A DNA stretch of 64,000 bases, taken from positions 1 to 64,000 of the forward strand of contig NZ_BONX01000003.1 of the NCBI RefSeq assembly GCF_016862935.1. Reading direction: 5' to 3'. This document shows, piece by piece, positions 10,574-26,104 of this stretch (within the stretch, counting starts at the first letter, position 1; every line of letters starts with the position of its first letter). This stretch comes from Plantactinospora mayteni. Lineage in GTDB: Bacteria > Actinomycetota > Actinomycetes > Mycobacteriales > Micromonosporaceae. The notes beneath the pieces are model-generated. The model saw only the letters and a program-made list of their open reading frames with translations. It did not search any database and was not told the DNA's origin. Position numbers and translations under genes: made by a program.

Positions 10574-11170
10574 ATGCAGCAAACCTCCATCGCCAGATCG
10601 GGGAAAGGGCGGCGGTCCGGCCGCGAACAGCCGGTTGACATCGGCCCCCGGCCCTCGCGATCAGGCCCGGTCGACGTACCCGCTGGTCCTGGCCTGGCCA
10701 TCGGTCCAACGCAGAATCGGGCGTGGGGTTACGACGATCGGGCGTGGGGTTACGACGATGGGTTCCCGACGCCTCGACGCGCAGCGTGTCCGGGCACCCG
10801 GTCCGGCACCAAAGTCACCGAGAACGGGATGGCGGACTCAAAACTTCCGGTACGCTGCGACTGGCCGAAATTGCACTGGTCAATGTCGAGAAGGCGATGC
10901 CCAGGTTCCCGTCTGAAACAGTTTCGGAGCACGCACGGTCACCGGTGGATGCCATCTCCCCGACGAAACCGGTCACGGTAATCGTCTGGCGGCGAGCCGA
11001 CCGGACACGCGCGAAAGAGGTTCCAGACGTGCACGGCACAGGTCAGCGTGACCCGATCGCCCCCGCGGCCGAATGGGCGAATGGTCGGCGGTGGGACCGT
11101 TCCCCGACCCGGCCCGGGGAACGGCGGGGCAGCGCCTCGAACACGGGCATCATCCCGGTCACGGACCGGG
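10574..11170. other. Long intergenic region upstream of the polymerase
   Basis: About 600 bp between the divergent glycosyltransferase and polymerase genes (the 92-bp repeat follows). The plus frame is open from 10723 into the polymerase, but its composition and lack of recognisable motifs argue against coding. It contains a short tandem duplication at 10716-10757. Local A+T rises around 10830-10930, which may hold promoters for both neighbours. No confident -35/-10 pair was seen. Confidence 0.4.
10716..10757. repeat. Tandem direct repeat, 2 x 21 bp
   Basis: Two adjacent identical 21-bp units, 10716-10736 and 10737-10757, each beginning ATCGGGCGTGGGG. They lie in the non-coding stretch upstream of the polymerase. 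This looks like a recent slippage duplication; a regulatory function is not evident. Confidence 0.8.
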
Positions 11171-11262
11171 TGAACCTTTTTCAACCTGAACCGCGCGGCG
11201 GCTGCGCCCCGACTTCCACCCGCGGCCACCACGGACCGCAGGGGGGGGTTGAAAAAGGTTCA
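11171..11262 (+). repeat. 92-bp element with 16-bp terminal inverted repeats (copy 1)
   Basis: The ends are TGAACCTTTTTCAACC (11171-11186) and its exact reverse complement (11247-11262). The first 30 bp and the last ~14 bp match copy 2 at 25704-25795 when that copy is reversed, while the middle differs. No target-site duplication or coding capacity was found, so it resembles a MITE or REP-type palindromic element. The right arm ends directly at the GTG of the polymerase and contributes the AAAAAGG ribosome site. In RNA the two arms could pair and hide that site. Confidence 0.85.
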
Positions 11263-12468
11263 GTGAGCGGGCCCAGCGTCGCCCTGTTGTGCGTCGTCGC
11301 CTTCCTGGCCGCCTGGGCACGCCACCAGCAACTGATCGGCATCTGCCTGGCCATCGCGATCGTCCTCAGCGGCCGGATGCCTCGGCTGCGGGTGCCGGAG
11401 GTCCTGGCGCTGGCTCTCGGCTTCTGGGCCTACGCGACACTGTGGTGGACCGACAGCTTTGACATCACGCTGAGTTCCGCATACCGCTACGCCGGTGCCT
11501 GTCTACTGTTCGTGGCGGCACGCCACCTGTGCACCACCCGAAGGAACATGTTGCTCGTCGGGTACTCCTATCTGGCCGCCTGCGTGCTGCGAGCTTTCCA
11601 GGTGATCCTCGAGTCTTTGGCGGAGGGCGCACCCACCCGCAGCGAGGCCTTCGACCTGAGCGTCCGGTTCGGCATCACCGAGACGAACATCAACTTCACC
11701 GCGTACTCCTTCGTCACCGCCGCCGTGCTCTCGGTGCTGCTGCTCAGCGTGCCCGGCCAGCCCCGGGTCGCCCGGTTCGGCCTGTACGCGGTCCTGCCGG
11801 TACTGGCCTACGCGGTCCTGCTCACGGGCACGAAGGGGGCACTGATCGCCCTGGCGCTCGGTGCCGGGTATTTGGTGCTGAGCCGGCTGTCGGCGCGGGT
11901 GATGTGGATTCTCGCCGCGGTGATCGTTCCCGTCCTGCTCGTCCTGGTCCCGCTCGGCCTCGGAAGCGACCGGCTGATCTGGCTGGACGTCTCGTTCGGC
12001 GACCGGTCGACCGGCGACATGTCCGGCCGGCTGGTGATCTGGCCATACGCGGCATCCTCCTGGTGGGACGCGTTCCTGCTCGGGCAGGGTGCGGGCACGT
12101 TCCCGGTGACGAACCCGCTTGGCGTCGGAGCGCACACCCTGCTGCTGACCGTCGGCAACGACCTGGGTCTGTTCGGCCTGCTGCTCTTCGCCGCCGTCTT
12201 CGCCGCCGCGCTCCGGAGGCCCGCCTCCCGGTCCACGCCGCAGGGGCGGCGGCTCGCGGGTTTCCTCCTGACGAGTCTGTTGCCGATCTGGCTGACCGGA
12301 CACTGGGAGACCGCCCTGGGCGTGTGGCTCACCCTCGGACTGTTGTCGGTGTGGCCAGCGGCGTCCACCGGGTCACCGCGCACCCCTGCCGGGATCGGCG
12401 CAGCGCCGGGCCGGGCCGGAGCGGCACGGCCGCTAACGGGTCCGGCCCGGGGGGCGTGGCGCCGGTAG
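11263..12468 (+). CDS. O-antigen polymerase/ligase-like membrane protein (Wzy type)
   Basis: The 401-aa protein has about ten hydrophobic segments. A Wzy_C-type loop falls at about residues 240-290, with FGDRSTGDMSGRLVIWPYA and LLGQGAGTFPV. Proteins of this class join lipid-linked repeat units (polymerase) or transfer the chain to an acceptor (ligase); position beside the flippase favours polymerase. The GTG at 11263 follows AAAAAGG supplied by the inverted-repeat element, and the hydrophobic protein begins at once (GPSVALLCVVAFLAAW). The frame extends upstream through the repeat but that part has no protein-like features. The last 36 bp overlap the convergent glycosyltransferase. Confidence 0.85.
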   Translation: MSGPSVALLCVVAFLAAWARHQQLIGICLAIAIVLSGRMPRLRVPEVLALALGFWAYATLWWTDSFDITLSSAYRYAGACLLFVAARHLCTTRRNMLLVGYSYLAACVLRAFQVILESLAEGAPTRSEAFDLSVRFGITETNINFTAYSFVTAAVLSVLLLSVPGQPRVARFGLYAVLPVLAYAVLLTGTKGALIALALGAGYLVLSRLSARVMWILAAVIVPVLLVLVPLGLGSDRLIWLDVSFGDRSTGDMSGRLVIWPYAASSWWDAFLLGQGAGTFPVTNPLGVGAHTLLLTVGNDLGLFGLLLFAAVFAAALRRPASRSTPQGRRLAGFLLTSLLPIWLTGHWETALGVWLTLGLLSVWPAASTGSPRTPAGIGAAPGRAGAARPLTGPARGAWRR

Positions 12469-13674
12469 AGCGGTCGGATGAGGCGAGGACGCGGAGACGA
12501 CCTCGTGCCAGAGGGCGACATGCCGATCGAAGACCCTGTCGAGGGAGTACTCCCGCGTGGCCTTGGCCCGTGCGTGGTCGCCCAACTCCCGGCGCCGGGC
12601 CGGGTCGTTCATGAGCGTGGCGAGAGCCGGGGCCAACAGGGCCGGGCGAGCGGGGGGAACGACGACGCCGCAGTCGTCCGCCAGCATCTCGGCTACCGCC
12701 CCGACATCCGTGGAGACGATCGCCCGGCCCAGGGCCATCGCCTCCACGACCACGTTGGGGAACCCTTCGGTGTGGCTCGGCAGCACGAACAGGTCGCACT
12801 CCGCCATCAGCTCCCAAGCCCGCGAGTGCGGTTGTTCGCCGAGGAACGAGACCGAGTCCAGTGCCCCGAACGTGCGCCTGAGAGACCGTAGGTACGCCTC
12901 GTCACAGGGACCGACCACGAGCAGCCTCCACTCCGGGCTGCCCACCTCGATCCACGCGGCGAGGAGGTCCTCGATGCCCTTGGGCCGCAGGACCCAGCCG
13001 ACGAAGAGGGCCGTACGCGGACCGCCCCGGTCCGGCCTGGGCATCGGCAACTCGGCCAGGTCGACGCCGTTGGGCATCCGTCCGACGCGTGCCCCGGGGA
13101 GGTGCCGGGCGATCGCCGCCTCGGTGTGTCGGTCGAGCACGACGACCTTCGCCCGGCGGATGACCCGCGTCATGAGCCTCCACTCCAGGCTGTTGGCCTC
13201 GGCGATCTGCGGAACCCGACCGAAGTGGAGCTGGTAGACGACCGGAAGGCGCGCGCTCCTGGCGATGATCAGCAGAACGAGGTCCCGGACGACCCCGAGC
13301 CCACCCGAGGTCTTGACGTGTACGACGTCCGTCTTCCCACCCGCCACCGTCCGCAACAGGGCCCAGGCGCCGGCTGTCAACTGCCGAGCGCCGTCTATGG
13401 CCCGCTTGACCAGCGAAAAGTCGTGTACGGCCCGCCACCGGACCGCGATGTCGATGACCTCCAACTCCACACCGGGGTGTCGCAGGGCCTGTCGCCTGAT
13501 CATGTGCATGCCTCGGGCAATGCCACCCATCGGCGGCGGCAGTGGCCCGACCACGCAGACCCGCACCGGCTCCTGCGGCTCCTCGGTGCGCTCGTCGTCA
13601 TGACCGGGTCGGCCGAGCTGGCCGATGCCCTCGTTCCACTGGGTCATGACACCCGCCTCACTCCGCTCGGTCAT
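12433..13674 (-). CDS. Glycosyltransferase family 4
   Basis: A 413-aa GT-B enzyme. The first domain begins VRVCVVGPLPPPMGGIARGM, a loop typical of GT4. The second contains TALFVGWVLRPKGIEDLLAAW and the E-x7-E donor region HTEGFPNVVVEAMALGRAIV. The ATG at 13674 overlaps the upstream stop as ATGA, which supports coupling; a second in-frame ATG lies nine codons on. It is the last gene of a minus-strand group with two further transferases and an O-acyltransferase. Confidence 0.88.
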   Translation of the reverse strand: MTERSEAGVMTQWNEGIGQLGRPGHDDERTEEPQEPVRVCVVGPLPPPMGGIARGMHMIRRQALRHPGVELEVIDIAVRWRAVHDFSLVKRAIDGARQLTAGAWALLRTVAGGKTDVVHVKTSGGLGVVRDLVLLIIARSARLPVVYQLHFGRVPQIAEANSLEWRLMTRVIRRAKVVVLDRHTEAAIARHLPGARVGRMPNGVDLAELPMPRPDRGGPRTALFVGWVLRPKGIEDLLAAWIEVGSPEWRLLVVGPCDEAYLRSLRRTFGALDSVSFLGEQPHSRAWELMAECDLFVLPSHTEGFPNVVVEAMALGRAIVSTDVGAVAEMLADDCGVVVPPARPALLAPALATLMNDPARRRELGDHARAKATREYSLDRVFDRHVALWHEVVSASSPHPTALPAPRPPGRTR

Positions 13675-14861
13675 GCCCGCACCTCTTCCAGGAACCCGCT
13701 GAGCGACGTCGCGTACGTGCGGAAGTCGAACGACTCCAGCGCCCGCTCGCGCGCTGCCTTACGCATCACGGTGCGCTCCTCCGCACTCAGCCGCAGCGCC
13801 CGACCCAGCGCCACGGCCAGCGCCTCCGCCGAGTGGTCGACGCAGACGATGCCTTCGACGCCGTCGTTCAGATATCGCCCGAGGTCGCTGGTGAGGTTGG
13901 CGATCACCGGAATCCCGTTCGCGAGGCTCTCGCAGAACTTGGTGGGAAAGCCGGCCTGGGCAAACCGCGCCGGTCTCCGAAGCAGAACGCTGAAATCCGC
14001 CTGCCGCAACACGTTCGAGACGTCGGGTTGAGGCAACCTCCCCAGGACCCGTACGGAGCTTGGCGGCGGCGCCCCGAGCAACCGCCGTACCTCCGCCGGC
14101 GACGGCCCGACGACGTGGAGCCGCACGTCGCCGCCCGCCCGAGCGACCCGGTCCACCCCGTGGATGACGTTCGCCAGCAGGTCCTTCCGGCCCGGCGTGC
14201 CCGCGTACACGACTGTGAGGCCGGACCGGTCCGGTACGCCCGGCGGCGCGTTGACGGGCAGTCCCAGGACGTCGAGTGTCGGCGGTACCCGGATCGCCCG
14301 ACAGCCGCGCTCCCGATAATGCCCTTCGAGGAAGGAACTGATCGCGATGACTCCGTCGCAGCGGGGATAGTGGTAACGCAAGGCGATCTTGGCGCCGATA
14401 TGGATCGGCCCGAACAGACCGCCGATCAACTGTCGAGGGCTGTGCCACTCGACGACGTCGGCGATCAGCGGAACCCGATTGCCGCGACACCACCGCCGAA
14501 GGCGGACCATGTATTGTGTCCCGCCGCCATAGACGATGACGTGGGAAGGCTTGGTAGCCTGCGCATCCAGCCAGGCGAGGGTTGTTCGACCGGACCAGAG
14601 AATGACCTGCGCCGACTTGGACAGCAGGTTGTCGCCGACCGAGGGCAGCTCCCCGAGGCCGAGATGGGAGACCGATCCCGGCCCGTCGACCTCCGCCAGC
14701 CTGCTCGGCGCGGCCGGGCCCTCCTCTCCACTGGCCACCACCACGTCGTAGCCGCCCGCGGCGAGCGAGGAGGCGATGCCGTGGACCCTGCGGGAGCATG
14801 CCTGGCCCCACGGAAAGCGAAAAGGACCAACGTACGCCACCCATTCCCTTACGCCAGGCAT
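13671..14861 (-). CDS. Glycosyltransferase family 4
   Basis: A 396-aa GT-B enzyme from the ATG at 14861, where MPGVREWVAYVGPFRFPWGQ begins the conserved first domain. ARKD-type features follow: LTVVYAGTPGRKDLLANVIHG starts the donor domain, and FAQAGFPTKFCESLANGIPV is a SPTKFxE donor motif. The frame is open to 15017 with an alternative ATG at 14918, so the true start is uncertain. It is coupled to the next gene by a 4-bp overlap. The sugar transferred is unknown. Confidence 0.83.
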   Translation of the reverse strand: MPGVREWVAYVGPFRFPWGQACSRRVHGIASSLAAGGYDVVVASGEEGPAAPSRLAEVDGPGSVSHLGLGELPSVGDNLLSKSAQVILWSGRTTLAWLDAQATKPSHVIVYGGGTQYMVRLRRWCRGNRVPLIADVVEWHSPRQLIGGLFGPIHIGAKIALRYHYPRCDGVIAISSFLEGHYRERGCRAIRVPPTLDVLGLPVNAPPGVPDRSGLTVVYAGTPGRKDLLANVIHGVDRVARAGGDVRLHVVGPSPAEVRRLLGAPPPSSVRVLGRLPQPDVSNVLRQADFSVLLRRPARFAQAGFPTKFCESLANGIPVIANLTSDLGRYLNDGVEGIVCVDHSAEALAVALGRALRLSAEERTVMRKAARERALESFDFRTYATSLSGFLEEVRA

Positions 14862-15076
14862 GTGGATCCGGACGTCGCCCCGGCCCGTGCACCGCTCGCT
14901 GACGTGGCGCCGTGGCATTCCACCACGCGGTTCCGGAACTGCTCTGGCATGCCGAATCCCTCTCGCCCGAACCAATAGGTATCGACTATCGACAATGCAT
15001 CTGCCCACCGCTGTCAACGCCGATATTACCGCTCACGTCGCCCGGGGGTTCGCCGAAACCCGACCGGATGCAACTT

Positions 15077-16324
15077 CTACCGAAGTCTTCGCCGGCCCCC
15101 ATCTATGCGGACGCGGGTTCTTGTACCCGACCGAACCAAGGGAAGACGATTCGCATTCGGACCGTGGAGGTAATCCGCCCGCCCCGGCCCACCGAACGAA
15201 TCGGGTCGAGACGAGTAGCGCTTGAGGCGGAGCGCGGGCTTCTCCACGAAATGCCAGGAAAACAGGGCACAGACGATCGTCAGGGCGATTACCAGCAGGA
15301 TCAGAGGTGTGCCACGCAGTGGGCCCTCGATCGCGCCGAGCCAGATCAGCAGGTTGACGACCGGCATGTGCCAGATGTAGGTGCCAAAACTCAGGTCGCC
15401 CAGCCGGTCCGTTGCCCGCCGCAGGACCCGCGGCCCTCGATGGCCGACCCAGAACACCAGGTACGACAGGGGCAGGCCGGCGATCAGGGCCACCGCCACC
15501 CCCATCCCTGGGCCGACGGAGTGCCGCCACATCGCGCAGCCCAGATACAGGACGAGGGCGACCACCGCCAGCGCGCCGGACTGCGGGACCCGGTGCCACA
15601 CCCGGCGCCACCACATGCCCAGGAGGAAGAATCCGAGCCACGGGAGGAGCGACGCGGCCAGAAGCTTGGCCAGGAGACTCTCGCTCCCGGATCCACCGGC
15701 CAGGCCGTACAACGCGGCACCCATGGTCCCGATGGTCGCGGTGAGCAGCATCATCGTGCCGAACGACCGACGAGCCGCCAGCAGCACCAGGCCGGGGACG
15801 ACCAGGTAGTAACTCACCTCGGCGGGAATGGTCCACAGGCTGCCGTTGAGCACGCCGACACCGAACCCCTGGAAGGCGGCGGGATGGTAGACCGGCATGA
15901 AGAGCAGGCCACTCGCGAGCCAGGCGAGCACGTGCGGGTCGGCCAGGGCGGAGAAGCTGACGATCCCCGCGGTGAGCAGAAACAGCAGCGCCACCGCGGT
16001 GTAGACGTACAGCGCGGGAGCGATCCGGAGAAGACGGTTCCGCAGGTAGTCGCGCCACGGCCGGCCATCCTGGTGGCAGCGCTCGGCGGAGGCGTACACC
16101 ATGGCACCGCTGATGACGAAGAACATCGCCACGCCGTCGCCGAACCAGAGGCCGTTGTCGGCGCGGTACCACAGGAAGCTGGTGTCCAGGTGGGCCACCG
16201 CGTGCTGGACGACCACGCAGAGCGCCGCCATCAGCCGGAGGAAGTCGAAGCAGTTCGCCTCCCGCCCCTGCCCCGCCGCAGGCCGGTGGCCTTCGCCGTC
16301 CGCCCGGCGATCCGTCACCGTCAC
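15077..16324 (-). CDS. Acyltransferase family 3 (membrane O-acetyltransferase)
   Basis: A 415-aa integral membrane protein, likely to O-acetylate the polysaccharide or its lipid-linked unit. FDFLRLMAALCVVVQHAVAH carries the family's essential His in the first membrane helix, and RDYLRNRLLRIAPALYVYTA is the conserved Arg-rich motif before the next helices. About ten hydrophobic segments follow. The tail after about residue 345 is hydrophilic. Its GTG start overlaps the upstream glycosyltransferase stop as GTGA. Confidence 0.9.
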   Translation of the reverse strand: MTVTDRRADGEGHRPAAGQGREANCFDFLRLMAALCVVVQHAVAHLDTSFLWYRADNGLWFGDGVAMFFVISGAMVYASAERCHQDGRPWRDYLRNRLLRIAPALYVYTAVALLFLLTAGIVSFSALADPHVLAWLASGLLFMPVYHPAAFQGFGVGVLNGSLWTIPAEVSYYLVVPGLVLLAARRSFGTMMLLTATIGTMGAALYGLAGGSGSESLLAKLLAASLLPWLGFFLLGMWWRRVWHRVPQSGALAVVALVLYLGCAMWRHSVGPGMGVAVALIAGLPLSYLVFWVGHRGPRVLRRATDRLGDLSFGTYIWHMPVVNLLIWLGAIEGPLRGTPLILLVIALTIVCALFSWHFVEKPALRLKRYSSRPDSFGGPGRADYLHGPNANRLPLVRSGTRTRVRIDGGRRRLR

Positions 16325-17679
16325 CGCGCCGCCCCCACCCGTACGCCTCGGGGTCCTCCTCGTGCCGCCGTCATCGACCGCAGGTAACCGGCGAACCTCG
16401 CGGCTACCTCTTCCTTCCGGTGGTGCTGCCGCGCGTAGGCGTACCCGTTGCGCGCCAGGCGACGACGCAACGCCGCATCACCGCACAGCTCCGCCAACCG
16501 GGTCGCGAGCAACGCATGGTCGTCGACCCCCACGACGATCCCGGCCTCCGCCGCCCGGATGTGCAGCATCGACGCCAACTCGCCGGGGCCGTACCCGAGA
16601 ACGGGACGCCCGGCCGCGAGGTACTGCGGAAGCTTGGTAGACAGGGAAAAGCGGGTGTACTGCTGGATCTCGGCACGGAACGACTCGATGTGGACCAGTA
16701 CGTCCGCCCGGGCGAGGATCCCCGGAACCTCATGGCCGCGCAGCGACCGGGCCAGTCGGACCGCCGAGCAGCCGGCGAAGGAGTCCCGGTACCGGTCGAG
16801 GTCCGCCTCCGGCGCGTGGATGGTGAGCAGCGGCGCGTCCGTGCTGCCGAGTGACTCCAGGGCCACTCCAAGCTGGCGCAGGGATCGCCACCGGTCCAGG
16901 TGCAACCCGCCCACGTAGACCAGATCCAGCCCGGACGAGGCACGGCTGGCCCGCGACGGGCTGTCCGGGTCGGCGAAGGCGGCGGCGTCGACACAGTTCA
17001 CGAAGGCGGCGAATGGTCGGCCGTACCGCCGTTCGTACTCGTCGGCCATCGGCCGGCTGATGCAGATCCCGCCCTCGGACAGCCGGATGACCGTACGCAG
17101 ACTGGACCGGACGGCGCCGCGAGCCCGCCCGAGCAACTCACCGGTCGAGTAGAGGGTGCTGGGCCAGTCGTCCATGAAGTGCGGAACCAGCGGTACGCCG
17201 CACCGCTGGGCGAGCCGACCGGCCAGCCTCATGATCCGGACGCTGCCGAGCGGAGAGTAGACCAGGTCGGGGTGGAAGTCCCGGACCCACTCCCGGAGGC
17301 GTCCGGAAACCCGGAACAGGCTGAGGTCGGCAACGGCACGCAGTTCGGCGTGTAGTCCGGCGCGTGGCGATCGCCGCCCGCCCGGCGACGGGACCGCGGC
17401 GATCGGCGGGGCACCCCGGAGCAGCGCCCGGTCACCCCCGCTGAGCAGGCGTCTCGCGACGTGGTCGATCGGGGCGCTCCGGGGGTCGACCTGGAACTGA
17501 CGCCCGCAGGCGTCGGCCGGCGGCACGACGTCCATCGTGTAGACCTGAGCGAGACGGTCCCTCGGCCAGCCCTCGAACAGGTTGCCGAGGGTGATGCCGG
17601 TGCCCGTCGCCGCGCCGATCGGCGCCGCGCCGACCACCAGCACCCGGGGGAAGTCCACGTCCTCCGTCCGGTGACTCAA
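16321..17679 (-). CDS. Glycosyltransferase (GT-B fold)
   Basis: A 452-aa protein beginning RVLVVGAAPIGAATGTGITL, the nucleotide-type first loop. It continues with LVPHFMDDWPSTLYSTGELL, then a donor domain with LDLVYVGGLHLDRWRSLRQL and FSLSTKLPQYLAAGRPVLGYG. The likely start is a TTG at 17679 preceded by GGAGGAGG; an in-frame GTG seven codons later is an alternative. It belongs to the minus-strand run 12.4-18.7 kb. Specificity is unknown. Confidence 0.8.
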   Translation of the reverse strand: MSHRTEDVDFPRVLVVGAAPIGAATGTGITLGNLFEGWPRDRLAQVYTMDVVPPADACGRQFQVDPRSAPIDHVARRLLSGGDRALLRGAPPIAAVPSPGGRRSPRAGLHAELRAVADLSLFRVSGRLREWVRDFHPDLVYSPLGSVRIMRLAGRLAQRCGVPLVPHFMDDWPSTLYSTGELLGRARGAVRSSLRTVIRLSEGGICISRPMADEYERRYGRPFAAFVNCVDAAAFADPDSPSRASRASSGLDLVYVGGLHLDRWRSLRQLGVALESLGSTDAPLLTIHAPEADLDRYRDSFAGCSAVRLARSLRGHEVPGILARADVLVHIESFRAEIQQYTRFSLSTKLPQYLAAGRPVLGYGPGELASMLHIRAAEAGIVVGVDDHALLATRLAELCGDAALRRRLARNGYAYARQHHRKEEVAARFAGYLRSMTAARGGPRGVRVGAAR

Positions 17680-17794
17680 TCGATGCCCTCCTCCGGCGTC
17701 GACCCCCGAGCAGGGCGCTCCGGGCGGTGTCCCACCACGCTGCCAGTCGTCGTCCGGGCCCGGCGTAGCAGGGCATGACCTGGTAAGACACGGC

Positions 17795-18739
17795 CTAGCG
17801 TGCCGCCGGGACGTGGTCGGACATCCAGGCGACCGTGACCTCCAGGCCGGCCCGCAGCGGGTACGGGCGGACGCCCGGGAACAGCGACCGCAGCACCGTG
17901 CAGTCGGCCTGCGAGTCCCGGGCGTCTCCCGGGCGGGCCGCCTCGTACGTCACCTCGAGCCGCCGACCGAGGACTGCCTCCAACTCCCCCACGAGGACAC
18001 CCAGCGAGGTCCTCGTCCCGAAGGCGAGGTTCACCGCGTCCGGCGCCGACACCCGGCGGCGAACGGCGTCGACGATCACCGAGGCGACGCTGCCGACGAA
18101 GGTGAAGTCCCGGGTCTGCCGTCCGTCGCCGAACACCCGCAGGGGGCGCCCGTCGAGCGCGGCCGAGACGAAGGCGGGCACCACCGCCGCGTAGGCGTGG
18201 TTCGCCGCCTGGCCGGGACCGAAGACGTTGAAGAAGCGGAACGGCAGCACCGAGAGGCCGAAGCAGGAGGCGTAGGCGATGGCGTACGCCTCGGTCGCCA
18301 GCTTCGACACCGCGTACGGGCTCAGTGGCATCGCGCGCAGCGTCTCCCGCTTCGGCAGGGCGAGGTTGCCCCCGTAGACGGACGACGAGGAGGCGAGGAC
18401 GACCTGTGGCACGCCGTGCCGGCGGACCGCCTCAAGCACCAGCAGCGTCCCGGTCGCGTTGGCCTGGTGACTGCGGTACGGATCGTGAATGGATCTCGGC
18501 ACCGATGGAATCGCCGCGAGGTGTACGACACTCGCCGCGCCCGCGAACGCCTCGTCGAGGAGCGCTCCGTCGAGAATCGTACCGGTCAGCAACCGCGCGG
18601 GAAGCTCCCGGATATTGTCGAGCGATCCGGTCGAAAGGTCGTCGAGGATCACGATCTCGTCGACTTCCGGGACGGCAGCAAGAGCGCGTACCACATTGGA
18701 GCCGATAAATCCGGCTCCCCCCGTAACGACGATCTTCAC
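17795..18739 (-). CDS. NAD-dependent epimerase/dehydratase (UDP-hexose 4-epimerase-like SDR)
   Basis: A 314-aa extended SDR. KIVVTGGAGFIGSNVV is the cofactor loop at the N-terminus, ASSSSVYG the Ser region, and SPYAVSKLATEAYA the YxxxK catalytic motif. RFFNVFGPGQ and DFTFVGSVA follow as in UDP-glucose or UDP-GlcNAc 4-epimerases. The GTG at 18739 has GGGAGAGGG just upstream; the frame is open for another 67 codons of low-quality sequence that I exclude. It probably supplies a galacto-configured precursor. The exact substrate cannot be told from the sequence. Confidence 0.87.
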   Translation of the reverse strand: MKIVVTGGAGFIGSNVVRALAAVPEVDEIVILDDLSTGSLDNIRELPARLLTGTILDGALLDEAFAGAASVVHLAAIPSVPRSIHDPYRSHQANATGTLLVLEAVRRHGVPQVVLASSSSVYGGNLALPKRETLRAMPLSPYAVSKLATEAYAIAYASCFGLSVLPFRFFNVFGPGQAANHAYAAVVPAFVSAALDGRPLRVFGDGRQTRDFTFVGSVASVIVDAVRRRVSAPDAVNLAFGTRTSLGVLVGELEAVLGRRLEVTYEAARPGDARDSQADCTVLRSLFPGVRPYPLRAGLEVTVAWMSDHVPAAR

Positions 18740-19039
18740 TACCCTCTCCCGCCACCCCGGATATTCACGACCTCTCAACGAACGGACGCCCGGCGGGTAA
18801 CGGCGGAAGGATCGACGACGCCGCGAATCGGGGCGGCGCCGAGCTGAGAAAGATTCGGGCCGTACGGCCAGGTCAACCAGGAAACGCCTGCGCGGTGACA
18901 CAGAAATGGATGGTCGGCCCAAAAATCCCCAAAGGCGCACCCGGAGCTGCGGCAGTGGTTAAAAGTTGACTGCTGAGAAATTTGCCCGCCCGGAGACGCT
19001 CGGGACGCGGCGCCGCCGGACGTGCACGAGGAGTCGTAC
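18740..19039. promoter_or_regulatory. Divergent promoter region
   Basis: This 300-bp gap separates the SDR epimerase (minus) from the membrane dehydratase (plus). It has A+T-rich patches around 18895-18990, including a TTGACT at 18966-18971 that could be a -35 box for the plus gene, but no good -10 follows at the right distance. The gene at 19040 has GAGGAG seven bases upstream of its ATG. Confidence 0.35.
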
Positions 19040-20938
19040 ATGCAGCTCGCCGAGGCCACACCCGGGACGACCGTCACGGCGCGGCGGCGCCCGGATCCGT
19101 ACCGCCGCGCGGCGGCACTGCTCGCCACCGACACGCTCGCCTGGATCGTCGGCTTCGTCAGCGCGGCGTGGACACGGTACGAGTTCGACCTCACCACCGG
19201 CCGGCTGACCCAGGTGGTCGGCGCCGGCCTGCTGGCCACCTCGGCGTACGGCGCCCTGTCCTGGCTGCACCGCCGGTACTGGGCGCGGCATCCGCTCGGC
19301 AGTCTCCAGGAGGCCCGGTGCCTGACCGTCACGGTCACCTGCGCCGCGGCGATCGTGCTCGGCTCCGTGCTGTCCACCGCGGATCGACCTGTGCCGGCCA
19401 GCACTCCGGTGGTGGGCGGGGCGGTGGCCCTGCTGCTGATGCTGTCCGTCCGGGCGGTGCAACGGCATCGGATCGACCGCTCACTGCGGCCCCACGCCGG
19501 CTCCGCCACCCCGGTGCTGCTGTTCGGAGCCGGGTCGGCCGGCGAGGGTCTGCTCCGGGCGCTGGTCAGCGATCCGCAGGGCCGGTACCTCCCGGTCGGG
19601 CTGCTCGACGACGACCCGGACAAGCGGCACCTGCGCATCGACGACGTACGGATGCTCGGGGGCCAGAGGGAGATCCGCGAGGCGGTTGCCCAGACCGGTG
19701 CGACCACTGTCATCTTCTCGGTCGCGAACGCGGACGCCGATCTGATCCGGGCGGTCCGGACCGCTACCCTCCAGGCCGGTGCCGAGTTCAAGGTGCTGCC
19801 CTCGGTACGCGAGTTGGTCGACCACCGGATCAGCGTCGCCGACGTACGGGACGTGGGGATCGACGATCTGCTGGGCCGGCGCCAACTCGTCGCCGACCTG
19901 GTCACCGCGGACTCCACGCTGGCCGGCCAGCGGGTGCTGGTCACCGGCGCCGGTGGCTCCATCGGCTCCGAGCTGTGCCGGCAGATCCTCCGGGCGGATC
20001 CGGGCGAGCTGATGATGCTCGACCGGGACGAGTCGGCTCTGCACGGCCTGCAACTGTCGCTGTCCGGCCAGGCGCTGCTGGACGGGCCCGAACTGATCCT
20101 CGCCGACCTGCGCGACACCGAGGGCATCGCGCGGACGATCCGGGCCCGCCGTCCGGACGTCATCTTCCACGCCGCCGCGCTGAAGCACCTCACTCTGTTG
20201 CAGCGGCACCCCCGAGAGGCGGTCAAGACCAACGTCTGGGGCACGCTGTCGGTGCTGAACGCGGCTCGCGACGTGGCCAGGTTCGTGAACATCTCCACCG
20301 ACAAGGCGGCGAACCCGATCAGCGTGCTCGGCTACTCCAAACGGATCACCGAGCGGCTGACCGCGTACGCCGCCGCCCAGTCCCCGGGCACCTTCCTCAG
20401 CGTACGGTTCGGCAACGTGTTGAGCAGCCGCGGATCCGTGGTGACCGCCTTCCAGACGCAGATCGAGGCCGGGTTGCCGGTCACCGTCACCCATCCCGAC
20501 GTCACGCGTTACCTGATGACCGTGCAGGAGGCGGTGCACCTGGTACTCCAGGCGACCGCGATCGGGCAGGACGGCGAGGCGCTGGTGCTCGACATGGGCC
20601 GGCCGGTACGAATCGTGGACCTGGCCCGGCAGCTCGCCAACCAGGCGCCGGGCTCGCCTCGGATCGTCTACACCGGACTGCGGCCCGGCGAGAAACTGCA
20701 CGAGGACCTGTTCGGTTCCGGCGAGGTCGACGTACGGCCGCTGCATCCACTGATCTCCCATGTCCCGGTCCCGCCGCTGGCCCCGACAGAGGTGACCGCA
20801 CTGGACCCGTTCGACGAGCCGGAAAAGGTGATCGAGCGCCTCGCCTGGCTCTGCGGTCAGCCGCACCAGGATGCGGGGAACGTCGCCCTGGTGCCGAACA
20901 CGCGAAATAGTTTTCCGTCCCCGTTCCGGTCGAATTGA
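19040..20938 (+). CDS. Membrane-bound UDP-GlcNAc 4,6-dehydratase (PglF/CapD-like)
   Basis: Makes the UDP-4-keto-6-deoxy sugar used by PglE-type aminotransferases. The N-terminus carries four hydrophobic segments (about residues 20-145). A nucleotide-binding middle domain follows (VLLFGAGSAGEGLLRALVSD). The SDR dehydratase domain begins at about residue 300 with VLVTGAGGSIGSELCRQIL. Further motifs are FHAAALKHLTLLQ, NISTDKAANPISVLGYSKR and SVRFGNVLSSRGSVV. Length is 632 aa from the ATG at 19040 (GAGGAG upstream); a GTG at 19022 is also in frame. It begins a plus-strand group with the Gfo/Idh oxidoreductase and a second aminotransferase. Confidence 0.9.
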   Translation: MQLAEATPGTTVTARRRPDPYRRAAALLATDTLAWIVGFVSAAWTRYEFDLTTGRLTQVVGAGLLATSAYGALSWLHRRYWARHPLGSLQEARCLTVTVTCAAAIVLGSVLSTADRPVPASTPVVGGAVALLLMLSVRAVQRHRIDRSLRPHAGSATPVLLFGAGSAGEGLLRALVSDPQGRYLPVGLLDDDPDKRHLRIDDVRMLGGQREIREAVAQTGATTVIFSVANADADLIRAVRTATLQAGAEFKVLPSVRELVDHRISVADVRDVGIDDLLGRRQLVADLVTADSTLAGQRVLVTGAGGSIGSELCRQILRADPGELMMLDRDESALHGLQLSLSGQALLDGPELILADLRDTEGIARTIRARRPDVIFHAAALKHLTLLQRHPREAVKTNVWGTLSVLNAARDVARFVNISTDKAANPISVLGYSKRITERLTAYAAAQSPGTFLSVRFGNVLSSRGSVVTAFQTQIEAGLPVTVTHPDVTRYLMTVQEAVHLVLQATAIGQDGEALVLDMGRPVRIVDLARQLANQAPGSPRIVYTGLRPGEKLHEDLFGSGEVDVRPLHPLISHVPVPPLAPTEVTALDPFDEPEKVIERLAWLCGQPHQDAGNVALVPNTRNSFPSPFRSN

Positions 20939-21201
20939 CAAGCTCGGAAAGCCAGGCGACGGGTCGGAAAGCGGACAGCCCGCTGGCGGGTCGCGGGACG
21001 GCCGTAGCAGGATTTCCCGAGAATAGCCGCAGGATCATTCCGATCCGTCCGGCACCCCGCCGATTGTCGGCCGCGGTACCGGAAACAAGAGTCGAGTTTC
21101 TATTCGCGCCCGGGCGCCCGATGTCACGTGTCCGATCGACTCACACAGCCAATCCCGAAATTCCACGACCCCACAACCGCCCGATCCGCTGGAGGCGACA
21201 C

Positions 21202-22302
21202 GTGACCGGAATGTTGGCCCTGATCGGTTTTGGTTACTGGGGCACCAACCTCGCCCGGAACCTCGACAAGCTGGCCCCGGTGCGGTGGCGCTACCTGGTG
21301 GATTCCAGCCCGGAGCGACGGCACGCCGCCACCGAGCGGTACCCCCAGGTCCGCGCGACCGGCGACCTCGACGCGGTGCTGGCCAACGACGAGGTCCGGG
21401 CCGTCCTGATCGCCACCCCGGCGCCGAGCCACGCCCCGCTGGCCCGCCGGGCGCTGGCCGCCGGCAAGCACGTCTTCGTCGAGAAGCCGCTGGCGATGTC
21501 GGTCGCCGACGCGGTCGCGCTGGCCGAGACCGCCGACCGGTCCGGCCTGGTGCTGATGGTCGGGCACACCTTCGAGTACGTCCCGGCGGTCGAGCGGATG
21601 CGCGACTACATCCGGTCCGGCGAGATCGGAGACGTCCTCTACCTGCACTCCCAGCGGCTCAACCTCGGCCGGATCCAGAACGACCTGCACACCTTCTGGT
21701 CGATCGGGCCGCACGACGTCTCGATCGCCAACTACCTGCTCGACGCCGAGCCGCGCTGGGTCGCCGCCCAGGGCGGTCGCTACCTGCACGACGGCGTCGA
21801 GGACGTCACGTTCGTCACCGTCGGCTATCCCGGGGACGTGGTAGCACACATGCACGTGAGCTGGCTCGACCCGGCGAAGACCCGGCGTACCACCGTGGTC
21901 GGCACCCGGCGGATGCTGGTCTACGACGACCTGAACACCAACGCCCGGCTCACCGTGCACGACAAGGGGGCGGAACCGCTGGAGCCGGCCGGGGACGGCG
22001 TGCGGCGCTACCGGCTGCGCGACGACGCGGTGCACGTACCCGTGCTCTCCCCGGCGGAACCGCTCGGCCTGGAGTTGCGGCACTTCCTCGACTGCGTGCG
22101 GACCGGGGCACGCCCCCGGACGGACGGCTGGAACGGCGCCCGGGTGGTGGCGGTGCTGGAGGCCGCCGACGCGTCGCTGCGGGCCGGCGGCGCGACGGTG
22201 CCGGTGCCTGCCGTCCCCGGCCCGGTCGACGCCACCGGGACGCACCGCGGGCGCCCGCACCCGGACGGCCCGCACCCCGACCTGACCACCGCCGCGCGCT
22301 GA
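21202..22302 (+). CDS. Gfo/Idh/MocA oxidoreductase (WbpB/WlbA-like)
   Basis: NAD(P)-dependent sugar oxidoreductase of 366 aa. LALIGFGYWGTNLARNL is the dinucleotide fold, VFVEKPLAMSVADAVALAET the EKP motif, and GPHDVSIANYLLD contains the catalytic His-Asp. The GTG has GGAGG six bases upstream; longer open frame before it is not protein-like. With the adjacent DegT aminotransferase it forms the pair (oxidise C3, then aminate) used to make UDP-2-acetamido-3-amino-uronic acids. That would fit the WbpD-like acetyltransferase and 6-dehydrogenases further right. Substrate assignment is inferred. Confidence 0.83.
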   Translation: MTGMLALIGFGYWGTNLARNLDKLAPVRWRYLVDSSPERRHAATERYPQVRATGDLDAVLANDEVRAVLIATPAPSHAPLARRALAAGKHVFVEKPLAMSVADAVALAETADRSGLVLMVGHTFEYVPAVERMRDYIRSGEIGDVLYLHSQRLNLGRIQNDLHTFWSIGPHDVSIANYLLDAEPRWVAAQGGRYLHDGVEDVTFVTVGYPGDVVAHMHVSWLDPAKTRRTTVVGTRRMLVYDDLNTNARLTVHDKGAEPLEPAGDGVRRYRLRDDAVHVPVLSPAEPLGLELRHFLDCVRTGARPRTDGWNGARVVAVLEAADASLRAGGATVPVPAVPGPVDATGTHRGRPHPDGPHPDLTTAAR

Positions 22303-22408
22303 GCCCTCGGCGCCGCGCAGCGAGCGGCGCCGCGACGACGCGACGAGCGCGACGACGCGCACCGGGCAGCGCCGCGACCGAGCAGCACCGAGCACACAGG
22401 AGCGTGAC

Positions 22409-23533
22409 ATGGCCCGAATCCCCCTGGTCGACCTGGCCGCCGCCTACGACCGGCACCGGGACGCGATCGACGCGGCGATCCGCGCGGTCGTCGAGGAGAC
22501 CCGGTTCATCCTGGGCCGCGAGGTCGGCGAGTTCGAGTCGGAGTTCGCCGCCTTCTGCGGCACCACCCACGCGATCGGGGTCGCCTCCGGCACCGCCGCG
22601 ATCCACCTGAGCCTGGCCGCGCTCGGGGTCGGGCCCGGCGACGAGGTGGCGGTGCCGGCGCACACCTTCGTCGCCACCGCCGAACCGGTGAGCTGGCTGG
22701 GGGCCAGGCCGCGCTTCGTCGAGGTGGACGCCGAGACCGGCGGGATGGACCCGGACGCGCTGAAGTCGGTGCTCGACCGGGTCCGGGCGGTGCTGCCGGT
22801 GCACCTCTACGGCCTGCCGGTCGACCTGACCGCGATCGGCGCGCTCGCCTCGGCCGCCGGGGTGCCGCTGATCGAGGACTCCGCCCAGGCGCACGGCGCC
22901 GAGTACGTCCGGGACGACGGTTCGGTGGTCCGGGCCGGGGCGTACGGCCGGATCGGCTGCTTCTCGTTCTATCCCGGCAAGAACCTCGGGGCGTTCGGCG
23001 ACGCGGGCGCGGTCACCACCTCCGACCCGGCCCTCGCCGAACGGATCCGGCGGCTCTCCGACCACGGCCGCACCAGCAAGTACGAGCACCTCACCGTCGG
23101 CTACGCGGCCCGGCTGGACACGGTGCAGGCGGCCGTACTCGCGGTCAAGCTGGGCACGCTGGCCGAGGGCAACCGGCGGCGGCGGGAGTTGGCGGCGGCG
23201 TACCGGTCCCGGCTCGACGGGGTCGGCGACCTGGTGCTGCCGGCCGAGCCGCCGAACCGGCGCGGCGTCTACCACCTCTTCGTGCTCCGGACCCGCTATC
23301 GGGACGGGTTGCTGGCCCACCTGCGCGAAGCCGGCATCGGCGCCGGGGTGCACTATCCGATCCCGCTGCACCTGCAACCGGCGTACGCCGCGCTCGGATA
23401 CAAGCCCGGCGACCTGCCGGTCACCGAGGCGTGGGCCCGGGAGTGCCTCTCCCTGCCGATCTATCCGGAACTCACCGAGGAGCAGGTGGAGACCGTCGTC
23501 GCCGAGGTACGCGGCTACTTCGAGCGGGTGTGA
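22409..23533 (+). CDS. DegT/DnrJ/EryC1/StrS aminotransferase (WbpE/WlbC-like)
   Basis: A 374-aa PLP enzyme. The opening IPLVDLAAAYDRHRDAIDAA is characteristic of the WbpE/WlbC/FdtB subgroup. ASGTAAIHLSLAALGVGPGD binds cofactor phosphate, and VPLIEDSAQAHGAE has the Asp. The internal aldimine Lys is K191 in SFYPGKNLGAFGDAGAV. It follows the Gfo/Idh gene after a 106-bp repetitive GC-rich gap and starts at ATG with AGGAG upstream. The likely role is amination of a 3-keto uronic sugar, downstream of the 21.2-kb oxidoreductase. A perfect palindrome follows its stop. Confidence 0.88.
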   Translation: MARIPLVDLAAAYDRHRDAIDAAIRAVVEETRFILGREVGEFESEFAAFCGTTHAIGVASGTAAIHLSLAALGVGPGDEVAVPAHTFVATAEPVSWLGARPRFVEVDAETGGMDPDALKSVLDRVRAVLPVHLYGLPVDLTAIGALASAAGVPLIEDSAQAHGAEYVRDDGSVVRAGAYGRIGCFSFYPGKNLGAFGDAGAVTTSDPALAERIRRLSDHGRTSKYEHLTVGYAARLDTVQAAVLAVKLGTLAEGNRRRRELAAAYRSRLDGVGDLVLPAEPPNRRGVYHLFVLRTRYRDGLLAHLREAGIGAGVHYPIPLHLQPAYAALGYKPGDLPVTEAWARECLSLPIYPELTEEQVETVVAEVRGYFERV

Positions 23534-23537
23534 CGAC

Positions 23538-23569
23538 GACGGGCTCCCTGGACGTCCAGGGAGCCCGTC
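23538..23569. terminator. Perfect 32-bp palindrome, likely bidirectional terminator
   Basis: GACGGGCTCCCTGGAC (23538-23553) is followed immediately by its exact reverse complement (23554-23569). It sits between convergent genes, 5 bp after the aminotransferase stop and 12 bp before the GDPD stop. There is no T-tract on either side, which is common for actinobacterial terminators. A dimeric-protein site is a less likely alternative. Confidence 0.75.
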
Positions 23570-23580
23570 TCGCGGTCAGG

Positions 23581-25635
23581 TCAGCGCAGGCCGTTGCGGA
23601 TCGCCACCGCCACCAGCCGCTCGGGATAGTCGGTGATGATGCCGTCCACCCCGAGGTCGATCACCCGCTGCATCACCGCCGGATCGTCCACCGTGTACGG
23701 CACTACCTTCAGCCCGGACCGCCGTTGCAGGTCGGCGACCGTCGGCCCGTGGAAGTACGCCGGGTCCTGCCGCAGATACCAGTCGGCCGACGGCACCGTG
23801 CCCTGGGCCGGGTCGTGCACCTGCCAGTTGGCCGAGACCGTGCCGGCGCCGGACGCCCGGACCAGCTTGCCGAGGTCCCGGTACCGCCACCAGTCCAGCC
23901 CGGCCGTCCACGGGCTGCGTACCGAGCGGTCGCCGTAGACCGCCTGGAGCGAGCACTCGTCGGCGAGGCTGGCGCACTCGGCCGGGCCGTACTGCCAGAC
24001 CAGGGCGACGGTCTCGATCCGCCGGTTGAGGTCCCGGGCGTAGGTGATGGTCCGCCAGTCGAACGACTGGATCGTCACCCGGTCCACGAAGCCGGCCCGC
24101 TCGACCGCCCGGACCAGCTTCGCGGTGAAGCTCCGGTACGGCTCGGTGTCCGCCACCAGCGGGCTCAGCTTGGTCTCGATGTTCAGCCGTACGTCCCGCC
24201 GGCCGCTGCGCCCTACCAGGTCGAAGACCTCGTCCAGGGTCGGGATCCGGGCACCCGGCACGGCCACCTGCTCCGGCAGCTCCGGCAGGGTCTTCGAGCC
24301 GCAGTCGATGGTCCGGAGCTGCGCCAGCGTCAGGTCGTGCACCCGCTTGCCGACGTACGGGAACGCCGGGTCACCCGGCCGGACCGGCGCGGTGTCCTCG
24401 CAGTGGCTGCCGTTGACGGTGCGGTCGTGCAGCACCACCAGGTGGCCGTCCCGGGTCACCCCGGTGTCCAGCTCCAGCGTGGAGATGGCCGGGTTGCCGA
24501 GCGCGTTGGCGAAGGCCGGCAGGGTGTTCTCCGGCCTCGTGGCCCGGCCACCCCGGTGCGCCTGGATGTCGAACGGCGCGGCGTACCCCTTCGGCAGCGC
24601 GATCCGGCGCTCCGCCAGCAGCGCACGCAGCCGGTCCGGGTAGTCGGTGATGATGCCGTCCACCCCGTCGTCGAGCAGCTTCGCCATCGTCGGCACGTCG
24701 TCGATCGTCCACGGCACCACCTTGATGCCGTTGCGGTGCGCGTGCGCGACCATCTCCTTCGTCACGTACGGCCGGTAGCCCGGGTCGGTGACCGTACCGT
24801 TCTGCGGGAACCCGTGCACCGGCGAGAAGGCGGTGGCGCCGAAGGTCTTGATCGCCTTGATCGGGTCGCCGCCGAAGTCGTCGATGTCGAGGCCGCCGAG
24901 CCAGGGCGAGGCGCCCGGCTGCCCGGTCTGGAGGAAGTCGTAGTTCGTCAGCGCGACCAGCGGCAGCCGGGGCTCGACCTGACGCATCCGCATCAGCGCG
25001 CCCCAGTCGAAGCTCTGGATGGTGACCTGCCTCAGCAGCCCGGCGGCCCGGATCTCGGCCGCGGTGAGCTGCACGAACTGCTCCCGGGGAGCGGTCTCGG
25101 TCGGCGCGCCGGCCTCCACCTTGGTCTCCACGTTGAGCATGACGTCGTCCGCCCGGTAGCGGTTGACGAGCGCGAGGACCTCGCGCAGCAACGGCATCGG
25201 AGCCCCGGGTACGGCGAGCTGGCCCGGCTTGTCGGCCAGCGTCTTCGTACCGCAGTCGAGGGTACGCACCTGGGCCAGGGTCAGCGTGTTGACGTACTTG
25301 CCGACGTACGGGAACTCGGGGTCGTTCGGGGTGGCCGGGGCGGTGTCGACACACTTCGTACCGGTGACCCGGCGGTCGTGGGTCACCACCACCTGCCGGT
25401 CCTCGGTCACCTGCACGTCCAGTTCGAGGGTGCTGACCCCGAGCTGGAGCGCGTTGCCGAACGAGGCGAGGGTGTTCTCCACCCGCAGGCCGAGCCCGCC
25501 CCGGTGGGCCTGTAGGTCGAAACTCCGCCGGGACTCCGGTCGGTGGCGCTCGCCCGCCTGGACGCCGGTGGGCATCCCGGCCAGTACGGCCGCCGTCACC
25601 AGCAGCGCGCCGATCAGTTGGCGCCGTCGGGACAT
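23581..25635 (-). CDS. Secreted glycerophosphodiester phosphodiesterase with two tandem GDPD domains
   Basis: The 684-aa protein has a signal peptide (MSRRRQLIGALLVTAAVLAG; likely cleaved after VQA, residue 27) and two complete GDPD-like TIM-barrel domains, about residues 38-335 and 350-684. Each begins with an AHRGG motif (H44 in the first), has an ENT metal site, a LELD...HDR segment, and ends with VDGIITDYP. Known relatives hydrolyse glycerophosphodiesters or teichoic-acid glycerol phosphate outside the cell. The two halves also share a family-atypical insert (PYVGK...LTLAQ...LDCGTKTL / IDCGSKTL), which points to internal duplication. The start has AGGTGAT upstream, and the 92-bp repeat lies 68 bp further out. 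The gene may recycle glycerol phosphate from membrane or wall polymers. Confidence 0.9.
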   Translation of the reverse strand: MSRRRQLIGALLVTAAVLAGMPTGVQAGERHRPESRRSFDLQAHRGGLGLRVENTLASFGNALQLGVSTLELDVQVTEDRQVVVTHDRRVTGTKCVDTAPATPNDPEFPYVGKYVNTLTLAQVRTLDCGTKTLADKPGQLAVPGAPMPLLREVLALVNRYRADDVMLNVETKVEAGAPTETAPREQFVQLTAAEIRAAGLLRQVTIQSFDWGALMRMRQVEPRLPLVALTNYDFLQTGQPGASPWLGGLDIDDFGGDPIKAIKTFGATAFSPVHGFPQNGTVTDPGYRPYVTKEMVAHAHRNGIKVVPWTIDDVPTMAKLLDDGVDGIITDYPDRLRALLAERRIALPKGYAAPFDIQAHRGGRATRPENTLPAFANALGNPAISTLELDTGVTRDGHLVVLHDRTVNGSHCEDTAPVRPGDPAFPYVGKRVHDLTLAQLRTIDCGSKTLPELPEQVAVPGARIPTLDEVFDLVGRSGRRDVRLNIETKLSPLVADTEPYRSFTAKLVRAVERAGFVDRVTIQSFDWRTITYARDLNRRIETVALVWQYGPAECASLADECSLQAVYGDRSVRSPWTAGLDWWRYRDLGKLVRASGAGTVSANWQVHDPAQGTVPSADWYLRQDPAYFHGPTVADLQRRSGLKVVPYTVDDPAVMQRVIDLGVDGIITDYPERLVAVAIRNGLR

Positions 25636-25703
25636 CGGTAATCACCTGTTCCAATGTGGTGCCTCGGAGCCCGAGTCGGCCGGGCCTCCGGTGCGGTGTC
25701 GAC

Positions 25704-25795
25704 TGAACCTTTTTCCACCTCCCCTTGCGCTCCGTCGGAGCGCAAGGTCGGACGCGGTGGGTGAGCGCCGCGCGGTTCAGGTTGAAAAAGGTTCA
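25704..25795 (-). repeat. 92-bp element with terminal inverted repeats (copy 2)
   Basis: Same length as copy 1 (11171-11262) and in the opposite orientation. Its right end GGTTGAAAAAGGTTCA (25780-25795) is identical to the terminal repeat of copy 1. Its left end TGAACCTTTTTCCACC has one mismatch. Read on the minus strand, the first 30 bp are identical to copy 1, whereas the interior differs and carries its own hairpin (CCTTGCGCTCC, 3-bp loop, exact complement, 25723-25747). It lies 68 bp upstream of the GDPD start, in the same orientation relative to that gene as copy 1 has to the polymerase. Confidence 0.85.
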
Positions 25796-26104
25796 CTGGT
25801 CGCGCCGGGTCCGGCCCGGCGATCGGGGCACAGCATCACCACGGCCGACGGCCGGAAGGCGTGCACCGGGCGACATCGGGGTGAACCGGGGTCGACGGCC
25901 GGCGAGGGATCGGGCGAACCGGTGGGGATGTCCGGACGGGTCGGCCCCCCTTGGGCCGTCCGGCGCCGAAAAATGCCGCACACCGCAGCGCACACTGTCC
26001 ACTTCGCGATCCACCACGTCCGATTTGACAACGAGTCGCTTGTCGTGATTCAGCTACAATCAGGCGCGACCACGTCACCCAACCATCCACGGGGAGGGGC
26101 TGCG
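25796..26104. promoter_or_regulatory. Leader region upstream of the type VII secretion genes
   Basis: About 310 bp without a convincing gene, between the divergent GDPD and WXG100-like genes. The last 90 bp are A+T-richer and include TTGACA (26025-26030) and TACAAT (26055-26060). These are 24 bp apart, too far for one standard promoter, though each could belong to a separate one. GGGGAGGGG precedes the ATG at 26105. Confidence 0.4.

Follow-up and report, generated by a model that had tools for sequence, protein, structure and literature searches.

The first 64,000 nucleotides of contig NZ_BONX01000003.1 of Plantactinospora mayteni (assembly GCF_016862935.1; hereafter the window) carry two palindromic elements, at positions 11171 to 11262 and 25704 to 25795. 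In our judgement these palindromes are probably copies of a miniature inverted-repeat transposable element (MITE), that is, of a non-autonomous cut-and-paste transposon mobilised in trans by an IS5-type transposase, whose copies survive between genes and at codon boundaries. As a MITE the element is an ordinary kind of thing; what is unusual about it is its fit to the genetic code and the duplication of one base on insertion. A preliminary description of the window had offered two readings, a MITE or a mobile regulatory palindrome, and it is the MITE that is borne out by around a hundred copies with conserved terminal inverted repeats (TIRs), by empty sites in relatives and by an insertion sequence (IS) with similar ends.

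Much of the anatomy given in that description stands. Both elements are exactly 92 bp long, they run in opposite orientation, the first 30 bp of their left ends are identical and each is bounded by inverted-repeat arms of 16 bp (TGAACCTTTTTCAACC), with one mismatch in the arm at 25704. With only 58–60 bp separating the arms there is no transposase within the element. Four arm matches are found in the 64-kb window where 0.05 would be expected, and none of 100 shuffles gave at least four. One statement has to be reversed: no target duplication had been seen, but the base beside both ends matches in each copy, being G/G at 11170/11263 and C/C at 25703/25796.

A repeat family in the host and its relatives

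Searching the host genome (9.84 Mb in 123 contigs) with the 22-base left end and allowing up to three mismatches returned 110 matches, 55 on each strand, and the reversed pattern used as a control returned none. Of these, 90 were fetched and form the basis of the analyses of host copies below. Further copies are thus numerous in the host genome and occur in relatives as well. Length is tightly held: 88 of the 103 complete elements, pooled over the genomes then fetched, measure exactly 92 bp. The exact 16-mer end is present in 3/7 genomes of the genus, in 26/300 sampled genomes of the bacterial family (5/44 genera) and in 2/394 genomes of a sample of the class, the host being included in each count.

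The host copies fall into two related core types, A and B, with 77% core identity. Copies from a second genus, Actinoplanes (g30; the protein of locus L127 is 100% identical to that of L152, from Actinoplanes aureus), have ends as in the host and are mostly 92 bp long too, but their core is different. Three consensus cores from this genus show identities of 0.35–0.45 to the host types against shuffled 99% points of 0.45–0.48, and a single pair (B with G221) just reaches its own 99% point; the cores of other genera were taken from 20 + 20 hand-picked regions. Like bacterial MITEs the element is short, with 16-bp TIRs and no transposase coding capacity, it is repeated in the genome and differs in presence and absence between relatives, and one same base flanks both ends as a target duplication. 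A limited literature search found no description of the element, nor of MITEs in this bacterial family, and this absence carries little weight.

Some insertions have shared flanks in different genomes: L005/L102 is common to G000 and G002, and L094/L106 to G000 and G004, indicating that some copies are older than the species split. Other copies are crowded or decayed. At L048 (G000:C4:287103-290123) two MITE copies lie close by and the right end of the neighbour is degenerate, whilst at L057 (G000:C23:484299-487319) a decayed second remnant lies in the right flank, shortly after the first copy. At L017 (G000:C22) an internal deletion has shortened the copy, of which the left end survives together with the final portion of the right end.

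Target site and the duplicated base

In most copies the element is preceded by C/G A/G N and followed by N T/C G/C. Forty-seven copies with perfect inner 14-bp repeats at both ends were used as a junction set. The base N is the same on both sides in 41/47 of these, the T and A bordering GAACC and GGTTC are present in 47/47 and 46/47, and the outer A and T in 37/47 and 44/47. Three-base ANT identity holds in 32/47 copies and is broken in 15, in 9 of which N alone is equal. These junctions place the insertions at a loosely palindromic site, CANTG or more exactly S-R-N-Y-S, with duplication of N only.

Empty sites point the same way. The copy at L051 reads CCGC, element, CTGAAC and its element-free ortholog in G004, aligned over both flanks at 93%, reads CGCTGA; in G002 (93%) the agreement with this empty site covers the left flank plus the next 16 bp. 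The G at −2 thus predates the insertion, the A on the right was brought in by the element, and only the C has been doubled. The copy at L015 has an ortholog in G004 (83%) that is empty and aligns across both flanks. Six members of the genus share the gene end ...CTAC TGA seen at L014, with 95% identity in G004 and G006, although in these two the alignment stops 5 bp past the junction. Duplication of the single base N is evident from the junctions together with the one two-sided empty site that has a deviating target (L051), and duplications of 3 or 5 bp were rejected on the junction and empty-site data. The copies L121, L122, L124, L125, L037 and L054 look young and have unequal flanking N, perhaps as a result of recombination between copies.

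Reading frames through the element

The element opens with TGA and closes with CA, and insertion lengthens the target by 93 bp, so that entry between N and TG has three coding outcomes. With N at codon position 3, the TGA of the element acts as a stop and may replace the gene’s own TGA. With N at codon position 1, whether in a start codon or in a CTG, GTG, TTG or ATG inside a gene, 31 codons lie open, and the protein may be extended at its N-terminus, translation may restart at the right-hand NTG, or the segment may be inserted in frame. Stops are met in the third frame. Four consensus sequences (the two host types, G221 and G257) behave in exactly this way on both strands: there is an immediate TGA in the frame with N at position 3, the NTG frame is open for all 93 bp (31 codons) and the remaining frame has stops. 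The net gain is a multiple of three in 77/90 host copies, all of which descend from one form. Of 21 coding frames that lead into an element, 18 encounter its TGA in frame, 12 of the 18 at the target’s own stop; of 17 that lead out of one, 13 start in the NTG frame.

Individual genes illustrate the open frame. The LUD-domain protein at L015, which we take to be LutC-like, has 31 extra residues that are lacking from its G004 ortholog. At L082 the element lies in frame within a zinc alcohol dehydrogenase, which matches ADH_zinc_N in two stretches; three of its four orthologs in the genus (G001, G003 and G004) are exactly 31 residues shorter and the fourth (G002) is 25 residues shorter. An open frame through the element is likewise seen at L013, ahead of a condensation domain, and at L025, ahead of a HerA-like domain. 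A purine-rich stretch resembling a Shine–Dalgarno sequence is retained, by eye, upstream of the left NTG at L010, L030, L074 and L090, making an N-terminal extension as possible as a restart. The start codons beside the element at L010, L035, L060, L074 and L090 are ambiguous, and use of the left NTG would give a protein 31 aa longer; the protein at L010 is an ABC ATPase.

Position relative to genes

Gene positions were taken from simple, purpose-written gene finders rather than from curated annotation. In the firmest test each element was removed, its flanks were rejoined and the restored site was compared with control CANTG sites (n = 282) taken from the same loci at distances above 200 bp from an element. 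The rejoined site runs through a gene for 1/90 elements and 88/282 controls (p = 2e-11); a stop codon lies at the site for 11/90 and 1/282, respectively (p = 1e-6), and a start for 9/90 and 8/282 (p = 0.008). Sites that were intergenic or unscorable numbered 70/90 and 186/282.

The same avoidance is seen with the elements in place. A gene finder based on codon usage put 3/90 copies inside called genes, as against 3298/3829 (86%) random midpoints; this finder undercounts, in that a gene split by an element is called as two, and L013 and L015 lie in genes but were missed. With an earlier, cruder finder 12/90 copies lay inside genes, as against 68% of random placements. Among the 90 copies, 22 element ends fall on a stop codon (13 left and 9 right, at an offset of −3 or −4) and 11 are directly followed by a start codon (10 right and 1 left; p = 0.012). 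Of the copies from the genera g30 and g32, 0/22 are inside genes and 8/22 coincide exactly with a start or stop codon. At both L030 and L018 the gene before the element still has its stop, and the ORF after the element still has its start.

Mapping the copies against genes thus reveals avoidance of gene interiors and not the random scatter within them that would have counted against the preliminary description. Its statement that each copy lies in a gene leader is true of the two in the window but does not extend to the family, where, among gene edges called within 50 bp of an end, the closest is a stop for 53 ends and a start for 26. Similarly, the right arm was said to be proximal to the downstream gene; this is so of copies directly before a start codon, where right ends outnumber left ends 10:1, and the bias is weaker within 150 bp (32:17).

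These are the observed positions, and we infer from them that insertions elsewhere were selected against. Copies survive between genes, on stops, on starts, on NTGA overlaps of stop and start and, occasionally, in frame. It is possible, and we put it forward tentatively, that selection has gone further and has shaped the NTG-centred target, the one-base duplication, the ends and the gain of exactly 93 bp, which is retained in two core lineages of no recognisable relationship, such that insertion can preserve stops, starts and frames.

A candidate mobiliser

The likely mobiliser is an IS5-type insertion sequence of ~918 bp with the TIR TGAGCCTTTTTCAACC. Under this proposal the MITE ends, TGAACCTTTTTCAACC...GGTTGAAAAAGGTTCA, would be recognised in trans by the IS5-type (DDE_Tnp_4) transposase of the IS, whose ends are similar. 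A search for distant paired ends covering seven genomes had, among the matches listed, a 918-bp unit in G125 that runs from TGAGCCTTTTTCATCC to GGTTGGAAAAGGCTCA between CAT and TTA; its DDE_Tnp_4 gene is split over two frames, and 65 relatives of its protein were found in genome contigs. In Micromonospora matsumotoense (L157) the IS is 918 bp long, extends from TGAGCCTTTTTCAACCTGATCT to GGCTCA between cacag and gtcag, and encodes a transposase of 285 aa. This protein scores 107.2 bits against Pfam DDE_Tnp_4 (cut-off 24.8) and its best NCBIfam model is IS5_4, at 128.5 bits and thus below the cut-off of 140. By hand count, the left ends of the MITE and the L157 IS have 19/22 bases in common. Thirty-three IS units with paired ends 900–930 bp apart were assembled as a set; N agrees in 14/20 of those with at most five mismatches in their ends, and one unit, L170 (flanked by CGA and ATG), follows the one-base rule with a G at −2.

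Two further places were searched for an autonomous element and rejected. In the host, three exact 16-mers followed by a base other than T were read along with six regions of ~10 kb around odd or unpaired ends, and these hold complete or decayed MITEs. In G221, the ORFs neighbouring the lone ends L111 and L112 are, by eye, not transposases. Related IS5-type transposase genes at L235 and L245 are associated with another type of end, TGAGGTGATCTCAGCG, and these may have MITEs of their own.

Evidence against the proposed history

A number of results weigh against the MITE reading or parts of it. At the junctions, N is unequal in 6/47 copies, for which recombination between copies is one possibility, and in 6 of the 18 cases with an in-frame TGA the target had no stop at that point, so that insertion changed the end of the gene. 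In the copies the 31-codon frame is open to no greater degree than expected under random substitution, and selection for read-through was not seen. In the link to the IS, position 4 is G in 64/66 IS ends but A in the MITE, and TGAACC occurs at one end of a single IS unit, L190. Of the five DDE_Tnp_4 matches in the host assembly, none has matching ends in the 2.5–3.5 kb around it. The transposase profile is present in 20/26 genomes with the exact 16-mer end and in 19/26 without it, genomes with diverged MITE ends being counted among the latter, and this equal frequency means that presence and absence give no support to the connection. Finally, N agrees in only 17/33 of all IS units, a result that lowered our confidence very slightly and left it high.

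Alternative explanations

The palindromes might instead be mobile regulatory elements or structured leader RNAs (riboswitches, attenuators or terminator-like sequences) kept for their effect on expression. Both window copies do precede genes and fold far better than shuffled sequences (z = −4.6 and −6.3), and right ends face the gene in copies directly before a start codon, but a strong fold is expected of any inverted repeat. Across 63 distinct host copies the terminal stem is retained (34 broken cells against 42.7 in shuffled data, 0/300 as low). The core arms are not clearly retained, with a weak hint in one arm of type A: the outer arm of type A has 58 broken cells against a shuffled mean of 61.6 (23/300 as low) and 5 compensatory cells against 1.9, whereas the other arm is as broken as in shuffled data (38 against 39.0, 78/300 as low), and when types A and B are pooled on the type A structure both arms are at the shuffled level (85 against 86.8; 191 against 190.2). 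Host and g30 cores, moreover, are not recognisably related and fold differently, and within 50 bp of the ends stops are commoner than starts. With no clear core covariation, lineage cores that fold differently and positions that are not promoter-specific, the regulatory palindrome of the preliminary description is left unsupported, and we regard it as very improbable. Shortness, palindromic form, mostly extragenic location and high copy number also recall repetitive extragenic palindromic (REP) sequences and bacterial interspersed mosaic elements (BIMEs), moved by a REP-associated tyrosine transposase (RAYT; Y1 HUH), but near-perfect 16-bp TIRs, fixed 92-bp spacing, the same-base duplication and a DDE-type IS with similar ends make such an origin extremely unlikely.

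The transposition chemistry might be of another kind. A conservative recombinase of the tyrosine or serine type, acting through a circle with a CANTG joint, would also suit the 1-bp same-base junction and the TG...CA ends, with crossover at N between circle joint and target. Against this, gene scans of two ~918-bp IS units (L127 and L157) gave only DDE and helix-turn-helix (HTH) transposase models, and the free variation of N between copies would be unexpected for a homology-dependent crossover; we consider this route very improbable. The placement of copies invites a different objection, namely that target choice alone, with little selection, puts them at starts and stops, given that the target contains NTG and that stops, like stop/start overlaps, often read NTGA. 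In its favour, 8/282 control CANTG sites are start-like. The controls run through genes far more often than element sites do, however, and almost never fall on a stop, a comparison to be read with the proviso that the exclusion of sites less than 200 bp from an element also excludes the gene ends adjoining elements. Target choice as the whole explanation we hold to be rather unlikely, and the MITE with survival at codon boundaries remains the reading that we prefer.

The two copies in the window

The features of the window are collected in the table. The first copy is followed directly by a gene of the Wzy_C type, and an alternative in-frame GTG at 11170, at the left junction, would give a Wzy_C-type protein 31 aa longer by reading through the element. 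The second copy lies between the GDPD gene and, on its other side, a subtilase gene.

Table. The two MITE copies of the window, their parts and the adjoining genes
Feature	Position	Strand	Remark
MITE copy 1	11171..11262	+	92 bp; core type B-like; left end at 11171
Copy 1, left TIR	11171..11186	+	opening TGA is a stop in one frame
Copy 1, right TIR	11247..11262	-	
Copy 1, duplicated target base N (G), left side	11170..11170	.	by the family rule for N
Copy 1, GTG whose first base is the right N	11263..11265	+	possible start of the Wzy_C-type gene
Wzy_C (O-antigen ligase-type) gene	11263..12468	+	directly downstream of copy 1
MITE copy 2	25704..25795	-	92 bp; core type A; left end at 25795
Copy 2, left TIR	25780..25795	-	
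Copy 2, right TIR	25704..25719	+	one mismatch (TGAACCTTTTTCCACC)
Copy 2, duplicated target base N (C), one side	25703..25703	.	
Copy 2, duplicated target base N (C), other side	25796..25796	.	
GDPD-family phosphodiesterase gene	23581..25635	-	downstream of copy 2; start at 25635, 68 bp from the element

Implications

Mobile elements mostly survive through avoidance of genes. This one survives at codon boundaries as well, since its ends serve both as a stop codon and as open frame and its length preserves the frame, and it has given 31 additional residues to enzymes that still look intact. Were selection to have shaped it in the way tentatively put forward above, the element would supply new protein segments of 31 residues (NLFQP...VEKGS), N-terminal extensions and operon spacers to this bacterial family, and it would clearly exemplify a transposon fitted for landing in gene-dense bacterial genomes. 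It also points to an IS5-type system that duplicates one target base rather than the three reported, with a bearing on how this group of transposases cuts its target. On a practical level, start-codon calls next to these repeats require checking.

Comparison with known systems

REP/RAYT elements are not known to duplicate their target or to carry long terminal inverted repeats; the element described here differs from them in having both 16-bp TIRs and a duplicated base. With the IS5/PHIS superfamily it shares the DDE_Tnp_4 transposase of the proposed ~918-bp partner IS and a palindromic target centred on N. For Pangu and bacterial IS5 the target duplication is reported to be ANT, and in the related eukaryotic Spy group there is none (PMC4482050). 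The partner IS encodes a DDE transposase of the IS5 type, but the MITE copies do not show the three-base ANT duplication reported there: 15/47 junctions break it and L051 shows N only.

IS-derived bacterial MITEs are less than 500 bp long, have TIRs of 4–30 bp, lack a transposase, occur in many copies, are mostly intergenic and have IS-like ends, those of type II sharing only their ends with an IS (PMC10969869). The present element resembles them in these general features, its ends being similar, but not identical, to those of the IS. It differs in duplicating a single base, in having a GC-rich core where MITEs are typically AT-rich (PMC10969869), in the constancy of its length across two core lineages with no recognisable relationship (88/103 complete copies at exactly 92 bp) and in the frequency with which copies lie exactly on start and stop codons. 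The Rickettsia palindromic elements (RPEs), noted in the same source for frequent insertion in coding genes (PMC10969869), are alike in being short palindromic mobile DNA able to enter proteins in frame. Here, in contrast, in-frame entry is the exception, with 1/90 sites running through a gene, and the ends are similar to those of a DDE-type IS. The closest analogues of the element are thus the IS-derived MITEs and the Rickettsia palindromic elements.

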